From a virus: a stretch of 64,000 nt of DNA. The DNA is taken from positions 1 through 64,000 of the IMG/VR virus record IMGVR_UViG_3300046005_001513. One strand, given 5' to 3'. Made by a program: the position numbers and the translations under genes. Every line of letters starts with the position of its first letter. Position 1 is the first letter of the stretch. The notes below the pieces were generated by a model. The model had not been told where the DNA came from. It did no database searches and saw nothing but the letters and a program-made list of their open reading frames with translations. Shown one piece after another: positions 26,384-31,600 of this stretch.

Positions 26384-26421
26384 ATGAGAGTCTCACTGGC
26401 GGACGTAAAATGCCAGTTTTT

Positions 26422-26495
26422 GGTTACTGTAGCTCAAAAACGAGAGAGCGATTGCGATAAACTCTAGGTTGTCGGTGCAAGTCCGATCAGTAACC
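26422..26495 (+). tRNA. tRNA-like gene with His-type acceptor, anticodon arm atypical
   Basis: GGTTACTG (26422-26429) pairs perfectly with CAGTAACC (26488-26495), an 8-bp acceptor like the extra G-1:C73 pair of tRNA-His. A GCTC/GAGC D-arm and a GTCGG-TGCAAGT-CCGAT T-arm are present. The segment where the anticodon arm should be (about 26450-26470) does not form a 5-bp stem with a 7-nt loop, so the anticodon is not assignable. CCA is not encoded (ACC follows). It may be degenerate, or deliberately non-canonical. Confidence 0.55.
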
Positions 26496-26500
26496 ACCTT

Positions 26501-26577
26501 GGGACAATACCTTAACGGTTAAAGGACTCCGCTCATAACGGATGCAAGTCTCAGTTCAAATCTGAGTTGTCCTACCA
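26501..26577 (+). tRNA. tRNA-Met(CAT) or tRNA-Ile2
   Basis: Acceptor GGGACAA/TTGTCCT, D-arm CCTT/AAGG, anticodon loop CTCATAA with CAT at 26534-26536, T-arm CTCAG-TTCAAAT-CTGAG, discriminator A and encoded CCA. The anticodon stem has one terminal mismatch. No initiator features (GGG:CCC) are present. Whether C34 is lysidine-modified to read AUA cannot be seen. Confidence 0.85.
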
Positions 26578-26586
26578 AATAAAATT

Positions 26587-26671
26587 GGATGATTATTCTC
26601 GTAAGGGGCGAGGGGGCACTGTAAATGCTCTGTCTTTGGCACTGTTGGCTCGAATCCATCATCATCCACCA
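26587..26671 (+). tRNA. tRNA-Tyr(GTA)
   Basis: 85 nt with perfect acceptor GGATGAT/ATCATCC, anticodon stem GGGCA/TGCTC with loop CTGTAAA (GTA at 26621-26623), a long variable arm with stem TGTC/GGCA, T-loop CTCGAAT and encoded CCA. The class II variable arm together with GTA identifies Tyr. Confidence 0.8.
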
Positions 26672-26686
26672 AACACTACAAAGATT

Positions 26687-26860
26687 ATGAAAGAAAGACA
26701 AACACATGGCGGGAAAGGCGATCTAGCCAGGAAGATAAACAAAGCCAAGTATGATGCTAATTTTGATAAGATTTTTGGAAAGAAGGACACAACAGCACCA
26801 CTTGTTGCTGAAAATACAAGTCGAATTGAATCTCGTCAGGATTCTAAAGAAGTAGGCTAA
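26687..26860 (+). CDS. Conserved small phage protein (57 aa)
   Basis: ATG 26687 is preferred; the open frame upstream runs through the tRNA-Tyr gene. THGGKGDLARKINKAKYDAN followed by FDKIFGKK matches a small family found in many phages (HGGKG...FDENWDRIFGKK type), of unknown function. It is embedded between tRNA genes. Confidence 0.7.
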   Translation: MKERQTHGGKGDLARKINKAKYDANFDKIFGKKDTTAPLVAENTSRIESRQDSKEVG

Positions 26861-26936
26861 CGATATTTGTGTCCCTGCGTTAGTAACGAGAGTTCATGGC
26901 GATAGTTTTCTCTGATTAACTTGCGCCGCCTTTAAC

Positions 26937-27009
26937 GGGACAGCACTTGGCAAAAAGCTCTGTTTGAAACTCAAGCAACTAACTGGTTCGATTCCAGCCT
27001 GTTCCACCA
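26937..27009 (+). tRNA. tRNA-like gene with encoded CCA, anticodon arm atypical
   Basis: GGGACAG (26937-26943) pairs with CTGTTCC (26999-27005), followed by A and CCA. T-arm CTGG-TTCGATT-CCAG is good. The D region is short, and the anticodon region folds best as GTTTGA-AAC-TCAAGC, leaving no normal 7-nt loop. Identity cannot be assigned. It shares with the 26422 gene canonical ends and a non-canonical middle. Confidence 0.5.
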
Positions 27010-27092
27010 ATGTGTATATGCCTGTCCATATTACCGTTGACAGGGGTTGACAGTGGCATTGTCTGTGGTGCGATACCATCAAAGCGCATCTC

Positions 27093-27158
27093 GGTGGTAA
27101 CGTGAGAACCAACCAGTTTATCAATCGCACAATTTGATAAACACCCAGCTCGCCCACC
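27093..27158 (+). ncRNA. Compound hairpin with pseudoknot potential
   Basis: GGTGG/CCACC (27093-27097 with 27154-27158), GTGAG/CTCGC (27102-27106 with 27149-27153), and a perfect 9-bp stem GTTTATCAA/TTGATAAAC (27116-27124 with 27134-27142). The terminal loop and one stem base read ATCGCAC (27124-27130), complementary to GTGCGAT at 27068-27074 upstream. No known RNA family recognised. Confidence 0.5.
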
Positions 27159-27252
27159 ATGTGTGGAAGGAGTTACGGATTCGGTCAGCGAATCCAGCCC
27201 GTGCTAAGTGAGACCGTGTGGCAACGCAGGTTGAAGTCCTGAAAGCACAAAA

Positions 27253-27280
27253 CTCCAGCTTGCAGAGGTTAAATGCAAGC
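27253..27280 (+). repeat. Hairpin repeat, copy 1
   Basis: Starts CTCCAGCTTGCAGAGGTTAA and ends TGCAAGC. GCTTGC pairs with GCAAGC around an 11-nt loop. Other copies at 27309 and 27570. Confidence 0.75.
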
Positions 27281-27308
27281 AAACACACAAGTGTATAACT
27301 GAATACTG

Positions 27309-27342
27309 CTCCAGCTTGCAGAGGTTAAACGCAAGCACTATC
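27309..27342 (+). repeat. Hairpin repeat, copy 2
   Basis: Same element as at 27253 with one base change, extended by ACTATC as in copy 3. It lies 20 bp upstream of the start at 27362. Confidence 0.8.
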
Positions 27343-27361
27343 TATTATCAGGAGAATTTAA

Positions 27362-27559
27362 ATGCAAGAGTTTCAAGAAAGAGTGATTGAAGAGCGAAAT
27401 GATTTAGTTGAAAAGCTAAACAAATTACAAGAATTTTTGGGTAACCCTGAAGCTGTTAGTAACTTAATTCCTGGTGAAGAAGCTCGGTTACATTGCCAGG
27501 CAGACATCATGGAGCGGTACATTGAAGTTCTGGATGAACGTATCCAGTATTTCCAATAA
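27362..27559 (+). CDS. Conserved small helical phage protein (65 aa)
   Basis: ATG 27362 with AGGAG upstream. MQEFQERVIEERNDLVEKLN, a short linker, and HCQADIMERYIEVLDERIQY match a two-helix phage family related to the crAss001_48-type small proteins. Function unknown. It sits between copies 2 and 3 of the hairpin repeat. Confidence 0.7.
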   Translation: MQEFQERVIEERNDLVEKLNKLQEFLGNPEAVSNLIPGEEARLHCQADIMERYIEVLDERIQYFQ

Positions 27560-27569
27560 GGTTAAACAC

Positions 27570-27603
27570 CTCCAGCTTGCAGAGGTTAAACGCAAGCACT
27601 ATC
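27570..27603 (+). repeat. Hairpin repeat, copy 3
   Basis: Same sequence as copy 2 including the trailing ACTATC. Its last bases (27599-27603) are the first bases of the long helix that closes the 27599-27783 RNA domain. Confidence 0.8.
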
Positions 27604-27783
27604 AATAAAGCATCGCTCGAACCATACCGCAATTTGGTTCCTTGCAGCGGTTATTCGTGAGTAAGCGGGACAGTCGAGACCCTGCCCTCATAGCTCGTTC
27701 ATTGAATTCGTAAGGATTCGGGTTACTACGATAGGGATGAGAAACTGACTCGTAGGACGTAGGAAACGGTGCTTTATTGATAG
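27599..27783 (+). ncRNA. RNA domain closed by a 17-bp helix
   Basis: CTATCAATAAAGCATCG (27599-27615) pairs with CGGTGCTTTATTGATAG (27767-27783): 16 Watson-Crick pairs and one U-G. Inside, GAACCA/TGGTTC, CCGC/GCGG, GGG-CAG/CTG-CCC, GAAT/ATTC and GAG/CTC can form local stems, some mutually exclusive. No convincing ORF with a ribosome site. A GCAA-capped terminator follows. This is strong evidence for a structured RNA, but the family is not recognised. Confidence 0.7.
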
Positions 27784-27796
27784 TCCTCCTGAACTC

Positions 27797-27821
27797 AAGG
27801 CTTCGCAAGAAGCCTCTTTTT
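27797..27821 (+). terminator. GNRA-capped intrinsic terminator
   Basis: GGCTTC (27799-27804) and GAAGCC (27809-27814) around a GCAA tetraloop, then TCTTTTT. It may end a transcript 3' of the 27599 domain, or be an internal helix of a larger RNA if read through. Confidence 0.75.
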
Positions 27822-28020
27822 GAAGTGCATTGTCTAAGTGCATTTCACAAAGAATTCATCACACAGTTCTTTATTCTCGCCCTAGAATTAAAACTTGGGA
27901 GTCAGGCTTGTGGACGGTACTGGCGGATAAAAGATCCACTGACTGCTAGGAAGAGACTGGCATCTTAGAGTGTTTAGATTTTGCTTGTCGCAGGGCTTAT
28001 AAATCTAAGAACTTTGTTCT
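27822..28020 (+). ncRNA. Chain of hairpins upstream of the 28084 gene
   Basis: Successive stems: GAAGTGCAT/GTGCATTTC (27822-27846), AAAGAA/TTCTTT (27849-27872), AGTCA..GTGG/CCAC..TGACT (27900-27944), CTAGGA/TCTTAG (27946-27968) and TTAGATTT/AAATCTAA (27974-28008). The last hairpin presents GTCGCAG (27987-27993) in its loop, complementary to the loop of the following terminator. Reads as a long structured leader or an independent ncRNA. Confidence 0.6.
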
Positions 28021-28069
28021 ACCCTTATTAGTTAGAAGACTGCGACCTTCTAGTTGATAAGGGTTTTTT
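28021..28069 (+). terminator. 18-bp terminator hairpin with loop complementary to upstream loop
   Basis: ACCCTTATTAGTTAGAAG (28021-28038) pairs with CTTCTAGTTGATAAGGGT (28047-28064), with a few G-U pairs, followed by TTTTT. The loop ACTGCGAC contains CTGCGAC (28040-28046), the exact complement of GTCGCAG at 27987-27993. A ribosome site (GGAGG, 28075) lies just downstream, so the hairpin can act as an attenuator for the next gene. Confidence 0.75.
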
Positions 28070-28083
28070 ATTATGGAGGTATT

Positions 28084-28545
28084 ATGTCTCATTTAGGTTT
28101 AGATTTAGAGTTCTTGATGGTAGTTATGGCTGGGCTGAATGCAGGTGCTTCATCTTATACACAACTAACTAGGGGTGAAGAGCTAATTCTCAGATTTGGT
28201 AACGACCACGCAGTCATTTTCACAGCAGAAGATTATAATTACCACTTGGCAATGCTTGAGCAAGAGGGTTATCTGCTGTTACACGATTCTAAATACAGAT
28301 TAAGTTTAAAAGGCTGGAGTGTTTTTAATAAGTTGAAATACTTAGACCGAACTGATTCATTTAGTTGGCTGGATGGGGTTGGTTTGGACGATGCTTTAGA
28401 ATACGTTCCATCAGGTTCAGAAGTAATAAAAAGTATCCAGGTTAATTTTGATACAGGTACTATTTACGGTGTCACGAAGGGCGGGGATGTTATAGCCAAG
28501 CATAGGCATAAAAAGGAAATAGAAGTATTGCTGCAAAGCATATAA
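28084..28545 (+). CDS. Unknown protein with winged-helix-like centre (153 aa)
   Basis: ATG 28084 with GGAGG at 28075. The segment MLEQEGYLLLHDSKYRLSLK followed by GWSVFNKL resembles the recognition helix and wing of a winged helix-turn-helix. The C-terminal part (IQVNFDTGTIYGVTKGGDVI) is sheet-rich. It is the first gene behind the attenuator-like structure, so a regulatory product is plausible but unproven. Confidence 0.55.
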   Translation: MSHLGLDLEFLMVVMAGLNAGASSYTQLTRGEELILRFGNDHAVIFTAEDYNYHLAMLEQEGYLLLHDSKYRLSLKGWSVFNKLKYLDRTDSFSWLDGVGLDDALEYVPSGSEVIKSIQVNFDTGTIYGVTKGGDVIAKHRHKKEIEVLLQSI

Positions 28546-28559
28546 GGTTTTAATCAAAG

Positions 28560-28585
28560 GCTCAAGCATAACGCTTGAGCTTTTT
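28560..28585 (+). terminator. Rho-independent terminator
   Basis: GCTCAAGC (28560-28567) and GCTTGAGC (28573-28580), loop ATAAC, then five Ts. Lies between the 28084 gene and the polymerase gene. Confidence 0.85.
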
Positions 28586-28610
28586 CTTGTACAAAAAAAA
28601 AGGATAAGAA

Positions 28611-31600
28611 ATGACAGACACATACGCGATCTTGGATTTCAACGGCTGTATTATTCACAGCTACAATTCAGGAAAAGATCCAGATGCTTACTTGGAAGAT
28701 GGAAAGTTATTAAACACACCAGGGTATGGCATCCAGGTATTGCTAGAACGGTACATATTACGAGTAGCTGCGTACGTACCACTGAATCATATCATCATCG
28801 TTGACGATGATGTCAAACCAGACAAAGAAGGTAAATTTAAAGACTTCCGCACGTTGCATGAGCCAAAGTACAAAAAAGCACGCAGAGAGAAAGGACCATC
28901 ACCAGAGATGAAGTATCTCCCAGAATTGAAGCGCCTAGCGATAGAGTTAGTCGAAGCAATGGGGATTCCATACGTGACCTTAGCGAATACAGAAGCGGAT
29001 GACGTGATTGCTTATCTTGCGATGAATTTACCAGGTGAAAAGCATATTTACACAACGGACGGTGATTTAGTAGCACTGGCGCAGTACCCAGGTGTAAGAA
29101 TTTTCCAAAAATTAGTAGAGACATTTAATTTTAAGGGTATAGCACCGAAGCATGTCAATTTGTACAAGTCGTTATGCGGTGATTCGTCTGATGGATATGG
29201 CGGTGTTAGCGGTTTTGGTCAGGTCAAATGGGATGCATTAAATCTCGCTCAAATCAACTATTTGGACGATGTTATTTCTAACAAGAACTTTGAAAAATTA
29301 GAAGCGGCTTATGCTAAGAGTCAAGATAAGTCCCTGAAAATTCTGTTAACAAAGCAAGAGGAATGGATATTAGCGTATGACATCCTTGCTAAACTTCAGC
29401 CTCAACGGGTCAATAGTAAACCAACAGAAACTTTCTTTGATGAAGTGTCAGGGCTTACAGTTAAGATCAAAGGAACAAACTTCAACAGATTAAACTGGGT
29501 TAAGAGAGTACCGAACCGCGCAGATTTGTTAGCAGTATTAGCACGAGCAGGGACTGATTACATGATGGATGTGCTTGAACAGTTCATGCCAACCCAGACG
29601 CTTGTTACCCCCGAAAACTTGAATTTAGAGGAAATCAAAGACCAGATTATGGAATCTCGTTATGTTTCACTCGATTGGGAAACTTATCAGGAAGATAACG
29701 CCAATTTTAAGAAGGCAAATCAAGGTAAAACATATGTAGATATGCTAGGGAGTAGGATTTCTGGCATGGGCATTACAATCGGGGATAACCTTGAACACAC
29801 GTATTACTTTCAGTTCGATCATGCTGATACTGAAAATAACTTAGACAAGGCGGTATTACTTGATATTTTGGACTCGATACCTTCAGATATGCCTGTTGTT
29901 GCGTTCAACTCATATTTCGAGATTTCTGTATTGCTTGCTGAGTTCAAAGCCACATTACCGATCATGCACGACCCGATGATTATGCACAAGCATATTGATG
30001 AGTTGAGTGATAAGCATGGCTTGAAAGATTTGAGCAAACGCTACTTATCGTATGACCAGTTACATTACGAAGATGTAATTGAAAAAGAAAAAACGATGCG
30101 GGATTACACAGGTGCTCATGTATTCCAGTACGGGGCGGATGATCCATTAGTAACTGGACATTTGTACGACTTCTTCGCTCTAACTTTGAACCTTGAAAAG
30201 TCATGGGATTTCGTCAGAGAGTGTGAATTCCCTACAGTACAGCTTCTTGCTGAGTCGTATGTATCAGGTGTTAGTTTTGATATTGATAAAGCGGAACATC
30301 AACTACAGGAAGATAAAGTGGTGTATGACAGATGCGTCTCACAGATACGAACTTTGTTGGATGATAACCCACTTACATACGCAGAAGCATTGCATAATGC
30401 AGCAGTGCTTTACAAAGCGGATGTAGACCCATTTGGTACGGACAGTGACCCTGCTGTGCACACATTAGCTGAAGCATTAAAATACTCTGAGTATAAAGAA
30501 ATCCCTCTAACTGGCACGCAGAAGATAGCAAGATGGACAGGAACGGAATTAAACTTAGATTCACCATTGCAAATGCAACGGCTGTTCTACGGTACACTAG
30601 GATTACCCATCAAAATTCGGGACTTCAAAGTATCAAAAACCCGTAAAAGTAAAGGATTAGAAGGAACTCCGCAAGTAAACAGTGATGCAATTGAAGAAGC
30701 AATATGTTCTGGTGACGCTGTTGATTGGAAAAAAGAGGTGCTTGAATGTTTTACTGAAGCGAAGAAATGTGCGACCAGGATCAAACTTTACTACAACAAG
30801 TTCCCTTTGTGGGTGCATCCGATTGATGGCAATGTACACCCGCGCTTTCAGTCTTGCGGCACAGAAAGCCGTAGACCTACTGGCGGTTCACCAAATTTAC
30901 TCCAACTTGGGAAGAAGGGAGAAGGTGTTAAAGTTAGAGAATGTATCGTACCGAATCGCAATAAGGGTCATGACTTAGTCTGCTCGATTGATTGGGATGG
31001 TGAAGAATTGCGAGTTATGGCTGGTCTATCAGGTGATGCAAACTTAACCTCATGTTATGTCGGTGATAACTTAAAAGACGCACACAGTATCGTTGCTGCT
31101 CAAATCATGGGATGTGACTATGATGTATTCATAGCCAACCGTAAAAGTGATGATAAAGAGATTTCTAAGAAGTATGATGACATTCGTAAGGCTGCGAAAA
31201 ACGTAAACTTTGCTTCAGCATATGGTTGTGGAGTTCCAAAACTAGCCCGAATGGTAAAAGTAGACGAGGACACTGCAAAAATGTACTTGGATGCAAAGAA
31301 AGCATCATACGCACGCCTTGAAGAGTGGAAAGAAGAAGTTAAAGAAGATTTGAAGCGTGATGGAAAAGTAACAACGCTGATGGGAAGCGTCAAGCATGCT
31401 TATGATTACTACACAGAAAGTGCTAAGGACATGCAAAGTTACTACGAAAGATCGTCTGTTAACTATGTTGTACAAGGTGTATGTGCTGATTATTTGAAAA
31501 GCGTATTAGCCACATTGCACAAATCAAGAACATTTAAAAGGCACAATGCTGACTTGATTGCACCTATTTATGACGAAATTGTGTTCTCGTGCCATTCATC

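Follow-up and report, generated by a model that had tools for sequence, protein, structure and literature searches.

The stretch of DNA analysed here, referred to as the window, comprises 64 kb of a 70,383-base IMG/VR virus record. It codes for a family A DNA polymerase that carries a 5'-3' exonuclease domain, for a primase and a helicase, for the two subunits of ribonucleotide reductase and for an SbcC-like exonuclease, and this gene content indicates that the source is a tailed phage. The polymerase has ~30% identity to those of Vibrio phage SHOU24 and the Pseudomonas phages PMBT3 and UAntarctica, in which the interval between helicase and polymerase consists of coding genes only. In this phage, the interval holds an island of ~2.2 kb (26384-28610) that contains two tRNAs, a small crAss001_48-like ORF (PF21825, E 1.4e-16), structured non-coding sequence and an orphan gene, gene 28084. 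The region of interest is the 3' end of the tRNA and non-coding RNA island (~26384-28070), set between replication genes, and the hairpin H1 together with the terminator behind it is the closing module of this island (Table 1).

Table 1. Features of the RNA island and of the gene that follows it, in window coordinates.
Feature	Coordinates	Strand	Remarks
Two tRNAs at the start of the island	26423-26574	+	26423-26495 weak; 26501-26574 tRNA-Met
Second element, copy 1	27253-27280	+	Repeat present in three copies
Second element, copy 2	27309-27336	+	Before ORF 27362-27559
Second element, copy 3	27568-27597	+	Reads as H-type pseudoknot, ACCTC / GCTTGC / GAGGT / GCAAGC
Structured RNA, ~190 nt	27598-27784	+	Long, nearly perfect closing stem, arms ~27598-27615 / 27767-27784
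UGAC hairpin	27940-27962	+	TGAC, 6-bp stem TGCTAG/CTGGCA, 7-nt loop GAAGAGA
Linker TCT between UGAC hairpin and H1	27963-27965	+	From the fold; equals the commonest hairpin-tRNA distance
Hairpin H1	27966-28016	+	From folding; extended form of the hairpin first described
GTCGCAG, complement of the terminator loop	27987-27993	+	Within the H1 loop
Intrinsic terminator hairpin	28021-28064	+	18 bp, -20.7 kcal/mol; 8-nt loop ACTGCGAC, fully open
CTGCGAC in the terminator loop	28040-28046	+	From the sequence
T-rich tail of the terminator, TTTTTATTAT	28065-28074	+	From the sequence
GGAGG, Shine-Dalgarno-like site	28075-28079	+	From the sequence
Orphan gene 28084, 153 aa	28084-28545	+	No relatives found; weak winged-helix-like hint

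A search of 26400-28700 with Rfam 15 (E up to 5) brought only the two tRNAs to the gathering threshold and gave nothing at 27940-28070, and no match to GOLLD, ROOL or any other non-tRNA family reached that threshold in the window. Two further stretches read by eye as tRNA-like (26588-26671 and 26937-27010) end in CCA, one of them with an apparent Tyr GTA anticodon; they were accepted by neither ARAGORN nor Rfam (E up to 5). Relatives of the locus were sought by DNA, by gene 28084 and by the polymerase without success, a result that does not imply their absence, as the nearest records of the same virus possibly lie outside the searches. For the island DNA, neither blastn in phages nor the exact repeat pattern gave a relative; the exact pattern of the terminator loop occurs in 41 stretches, whose contexts were unrelated where compared, none of those compared having GTCGCAG within 120 nt upstream; and the polymerase led only to the phages at ~30% identity named above, which have no RNA island before this gene. 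Protein relatives of gene 28084 were found neither in viral contigs nor in phages or genomes, and the model that AlphaFold builds for it without relatives cannot be used (pLDDT 39.8). The winged-helix-like segment with which this gene had been credited shrinks to a hint at residues ~47-82, given by two Pfam matches below threshold (E 0.065 and 0.089).

The preliminary description of this DNA placed a hairpin at 27974-28008, exposing GTCGCAG, upstream of a terminator whose loop exposes the complement CTGCGAC. Folding recovers the first hairpin, which is better described as the longer H1, with a stem of 6 bp, one mismatch and 9 bp and an apical loop of 19 nt (27982-28000). Its 7-mer is only partly exposed, because in the minimum-energy fold the GTC forms a weak 3-bp helix with GGC at 27994-27996 (19-32% unpaired), so that three of the seven bases pair locally. 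The terminator folds as had been described, with its loop fully open, and it stands directly before the GGAGG ribosome site. It shares with intrinsic terminators the 18-bp stem, the G-C pairs at its foot and the T run behind it, and differs from them in two respects: it ends ~13 nt before the ATG of gene 28084, leaving the next gene no room for a promoter, and its loop is complementary to that of H1. That the two 7-mers are exact complements is likewise borne out by the sequence, and their 7-bp duplex is worth -10.5 kcal/mol; the complementarity of apical loops over 6-7 nt that is expected of a kissing-loop attenuator is present, though within H1 three of the seven bases are mostly engaged in local pairs. 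No sigma70-like promoter is listed between 26665 and 28084 in a scan to which phage-specific promoters are invisible. Together with the short distance from T run to ATG, this means that gene 28084 probably needs either read-through or a promoter that such a scan does not see, and control at the terminator is therefore reasonable.

How often loops match by chance was estimated by counting hairpins whose loops share a 7-nt complement over the whole window and over shuffled windows. With permissive hairpins, 43 loop pairs were counted on the + strand and 33 on the - strand, against 31-66 in 20 shuffles. When only stable hairpins at most 60 nt apart were admitted, one pair remained on the + strand, that of H1 and the terminator, and four on the - strand, with 0-3 pairs in 12 shuffles (mean ~1.8) and a mean of 3.2 in 33 shuffles by a slightly different script. 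As shuffled windows give ~2-3 pairs each, some 7-nt loop match is expected in 64 kb. Stricter thresholds applied to the same 33 shuffles left a mean of 0.52 pairs per shuffle when both stems had to reach -13 kcal/mol or below, and 0.03 when the duplex had in addition to reach -9, and a duplex of -10.5 or below was found in none of them at any hairpin threshold. For two loops of such sizes fixed beforehand, the probability of a match is 0.0017. A match this strong beside a terminator is unusual, but it was picked post hoc.

A smaller hairpin, the UGAC hairpin, precedes H1. A permissive blastn search with 27880-28090 returned weak repeated matches to 27939-27970, which sit in gaps without annotation in unrelated phages of Acinetobacter, Salmonella and Vibrio and which, once aligned, display a small hairpin with compensating changes in its stem. 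The motif is defined by TGAC, a stem of 5-6 bp closed by a G-C pair and the loop GAA(N)AGA, and the window copy conforms to it. Pattern scans found the form with a 7-nt loop in 18 IMG/VR stretches, and a looser form, in which a 6-nt loop is also admitted and two stem positions per side are left free, in at least 119. The 7-nt form matched twice in 84,980 genomes of bacteria and archaea, once inside a long ORF, a number estimated to be about chance level.

Judged from the sequences, the motif is an RNA hairpin with a covarying stem. Among the matches listed, both free positions are paired in 107 of 111 hits with distinct flanks, from 106 IMG/VR loci, and the remaining four break a free pair; redealing the 3' arms gave a mean of 51 and a maximum of 65 such hits (2,000 shuffles). 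This test is unselected, in that it concerns the positions left free and only repeats with identical flanks were removed. In an alignment of 53 rows, 96.4% of the cells are paired compared with 81.2% after shuffling, five of the six pairs have changed on both sides, and sliding the partner by 1-3 columns lowers pairing to 16-44%. These rows were hand-picked from 63 representatives of 141 instances, which include two chromosomal ones and loci of named phages and which come from a finder requiring at least five of the six pairs. The rows omitted are L136, L152, L153, L156, the second copy of L172, L179, L217, L222, L227 and L242, L152 and L153 being chromosomal, L136 and L227 near-repeats, and L179, L217 and L242 rows with a broken pair; the figure of 96.4% is somewhat flattering because these last three were left out. 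Copies on the same contig can have quite different stems (AGCCCG/CGGGCA, AAAAAG/CTTTTA and AACTTG/CAAGTC), so the sequence of the stem is largely free. What stays fixed is TGAC together with the closing G-C pair and the loop, and beyond ~23 nt the flanks are unconserved except for a T at -1 (95%; the T of TGAC) and a scarcity of G immediately behind the hairpin.

The covariance model R1, trained on the 53 rows, gives the window copy 35.9 bits (E 4e-7) as its only clear match in the window, which is itself a training row, and finds one to six copies in each of 18 out of 18 phage records, all known beforehand to carry the motif and 17 of them selected on that ground. Rfam yielded no match at gathering level over the motif in 16 related loci. 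The motif is apparently undescribed: searches of the open literature for it and for leader hairpins of phage tRNAs found no paper whose title or opening lines of the abstract describe such an element. A reading of the motif as a peptide, LTARxRLA, was rejected, as alternating loops of 6 and 7 nt shift the frame, and a match in Gordonia phage Sapo was dropped because its loop differs. The string GGAAAGAC is presumably also a stretch of the peptidyl-transferase region of 23S rRNA.

Since the loci were chosen by the motif, the counts of its context describe the hits and not phages in general. The motif lies outside ORFs of at least 100 aa in 134 of the 141 instances, and its neighbours mostly share its strand (nearest gene upstream, 116 of 126; nearest gene downstream, 110 of 123). 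The window copy has this setting too, as it lies between ORF 27362-27559 and gene 28084, both on the + strand; a 63-aa frame that overlaps it (27777-27968) is taken as spurious. ARAGORN recognises a tRNA on the same strand near 42 instances and none in the examined context of the other 99, so the motif is not tRNA-specific. Where a tRNA follows, its start lies 2-5 nt after the hairpin in 16 of 33 cases, with 3 nt as the mode and many amino acids represented; most tRNAs of the same loci (125 of 145 distinct upstreams) are not preceded by the motif. The stem of H1 starts 3 nt after the UGAC hairpin, and by this same gap H1 holds the position that a tRNA holds elsewhere. Other copies precede terminators (L137, L151, L240 and L241) or ORFs (L144, L147 and L150), and behind some of them nothing recognisable follows. 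In Acinetobacter phages (L131, L133, L158, L161 and L162) and the contig L192, the stem AAYTTAGAGAAGTGAA/TTCACTTCATYTAAGTT is found downstream of the motif, a conserved stem of 15-17 bp whose interiors vary and are in part unrelated, as though different RNAs were framed by one common closing stem.

Carriers identified by sequence include the Acinetobacter phages BS46, Brutus, XC1, Phab24, Bestia and Abp95, Salmonella phage SE131, the Vibrio phages HNL01, VBP47 and D79, Cellulophaga phage phi19:3 and the crAss-like phage cr128_1, together with the Streptococcus phages phiS10 and Javan444, whose stems are shortened. In some contigs and one Streptococcus phage (L137, L145, L151, L211, L255 and L274), a long Shine-Dalgarno-like stretch, for example AAAGGAGGTGATC, stands ~10 nt before TTGAC. 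In a raw count over loci L130-L269 and the window, a different hairpin with a stem of 5 bp or more ends at most 6 nt before the tRNA in 28 of 145 distinct tRNA upstreams.

What follows the motif also bears on the loop match. Among the 138 instances with at least 140 nt of downstream sequence, 72 have two or more stable hairpins there, and a 6- or 7-nt loop complement occurs behind the window copy only; mononucleotide-shuffled controls gave a 6-nt complement in 1 of 414 and a 7-nt complement in none of 414. With a single copy in 138 having one, the loop match does not belong to the leader motif as such and is either a coincidence or private to the RNA of the window.

The island holds a second leader-like element in three copies. 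Records of 13 Corynebacterium phages have a 30-nt match to it at 93% (E 3e-4), and in Corynebacterium phage C3PO (L269, 1001-1030) the match ends exactly 3 nt before a tRNA-Trp, a spacing seen there only. A reading as a putative H-type pseudoknot is a lead from four distinct sequences: a compensating change separates copy 3 from C3PO (ACCTC/GAGGT against ACGTC/GACGT), while copies 1 and 2 of the window can form only three of these five pairs. Directly behind copy 3 comes the structured RNA, which has no Rfam match and is followed by a terminator at 27798-27820. At the other end of the island, a hairpin ACTGGC/GCCAGT with an A-rich loop (26391-26417) ends 5 nt before the first tRNA and, as read by eye, may be a further pseudoknot-like leader.

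Among known systems, lambda boxB is a small hairpin with a purine-rich loop of 5 nt that starts with GAA and has the N protein as partner. The UGAC hairpin shares the small size and the purine-rich loop starting with GAA, but its loop has 6-7 nt and no N-like gene was identified. GOLLD and ROOL are large phage RNAs found in tRNA clusters, and in Acinetobacter phage Bestia an unannotated GOLLD (L158, 2097-2444; 186 bits, Rfam) shares a tRNA island with a UGAC hairpin, whereas the window matches neither family. HDV-like ribozymes have a nested pseudoknot fold, and the motif, in contrast, is single-stemmed and without conserved flanks. The theta ribozymes of gut phages, which are HDV-like, lie beside phage tRNAs and have been proposed to act in tRNA maturation (PMC10879173). 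Proximity to phage tRNAs is thus common to both, but, in the accessible part of that source, theta ribozymes are discussed in connection with 3' processing of the tRNA, whereas the UGAC hairpin has one stem and lies just 5' of tRNAs. The put RNA of phage HK022, according to the part of its description that was accessible, has ~70 nt and two stem-loops (PMC9378689), and it offers a model worth testing, that of a phage RNA acting in cis without a phage protein. The UGAC motif differs from put, so far as that text describes it, in being one hairpin of 23 nt in which TGAC forms the 5' flank, the loop GAA(N)AGA is conserved and conservation ends after ~23 nt.

It had been suggested that the loops of H1 and the terminator could kiss, and such a kissing-loop attenuator would change read-through into gene 28084. 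This is improbable, even though the complement is exact over 7 bp between two stable adjacent hairpins, with a strength that none of the 33 shuffled windows attained, and even though any expression of gene 28084 driven from upstream must cross the terminator; as a matter of geometry, the large loop of H1 could also let this hairpin fold back beside the terminator stem. About 2-3 loop matches as such are expected per window, three of the seven H1 bases are mostly occupied locally, and no complementary loops occur behind the 137 further copies of the leader motif. The view that the loops kiss or regulate is not supported, no relative of the locus having been found in which the two 7-mers might covary. 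Moreover, pairing at the tip would leave the 18-bp stem and the T run intact, and by itself it explains no change in termination. Most likely the 7-bp match is a coincidence, or at best an accessory tertiary contact within one RNA. A further reading regards H1 and the terminator as ordinary intergenic hairpins and the window copy of the motif as functionless, intergenic phage sequence being often rich in hairpins and the 7-mer match lying within reach of chance. We consider this quite improbable, as the match to the motif is far above chance (with the window in the training set, as said), the family covaries, and of 200 shuffles of the 131-nt region 198 fold less well than the region itself.

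Two other proposals concern the motif itself. In the first, the UGAC hairpin would bind RNA polymerase or Nus factors, in the manner of HK022 put or lambda boxB, so that terminators and untranslated operons are read through. Terminators, tRNAs and long untranslated stretches do follow the motif, which is mostly on the transcribed strand, and RNA polymerase, being present in every host, would explain its spread; the tight spacing of 3 nt to tRNAs is nevertheless needless for such a function, and put, in the description accessible, has ~70 nt and two stem-loops against one hairpin of 23 nt, so that antitermination appears unlikely. In the second, the motif would be a hairpin of single-stranded DNA by which small modules, for instance tRNA cassettes, are exchanged or captured, in keeping with its sharp borders of conservation, its modular neighbours and a structure kept while the stem sequence varies. 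The bias to the coding strand and the preferred distance to RNA 5' ends fit RNA better, and no recombinase was recognised beside the window copy, which makes an element of this kind a rather remote prospect.

The best explanation overall, which we regard as evenly poised between right and wrong, takes the motif as the leader of an RNA module, the terminator as one with read-through and the loop match as coincidental. The island would be a series of leader-plus-module units, the last of which consists of the UGAC hairpin and, 3 nt behind it, a short RNA made up of H1 and the terminator. These two probably form a single small module, and as such the proper unit for tests of the loop contact. The motif would be a leader element at work on the nascent or the primary transcript, where it would mark the RNA module that follows and help to mature or protect it, whether this is a tRNA, a small RNA or an mRNA 5' leader. 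That it occurs in phages of distant hosts and has a preferred distance to RNA 5' ends points to an action in cis, either through a partner common to many hosts or through its own fold. While the anatomy of the locus and the motif's spread, covariation, intergenic placement and distance to tRNAs are observed, its function is what we infer, with processing or protection of the following RNA as the first choice and antitermination as the second. The terminator would end the island transcript, while some polymerases may continue into gene 28084 and perhaps into the DNA polymerase gene.

A wider proposal can be made more tentatively, and it has somewhat less in its favour than against it. The motif would be an undescribed, host-independent cis element of ~23 nt at the 5' borders of tRNAs, small RNAs and mRNA leaders, with carriers spanning Proteobacteria, Bacteroidota and Bacillota and with processing, protection or antitermination as its action. 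The second element, which is pseudoknot-like, stands 3 nt before a tRNA in a Corynebacterium phage and has three copies in the window, would then be another solution to the same task. If true, phage RNA islands would be built as leader-plus-module units. In such islands, the read-through and cutting of long untranslated transcripts are little understood, and a motif with a preferred distance to tRNA 5' ends across distant hosts would give a direct handle on the maturation of island RNAs, as well as a marker by which annotators could recognise phage RNAs that are at present unannotated.
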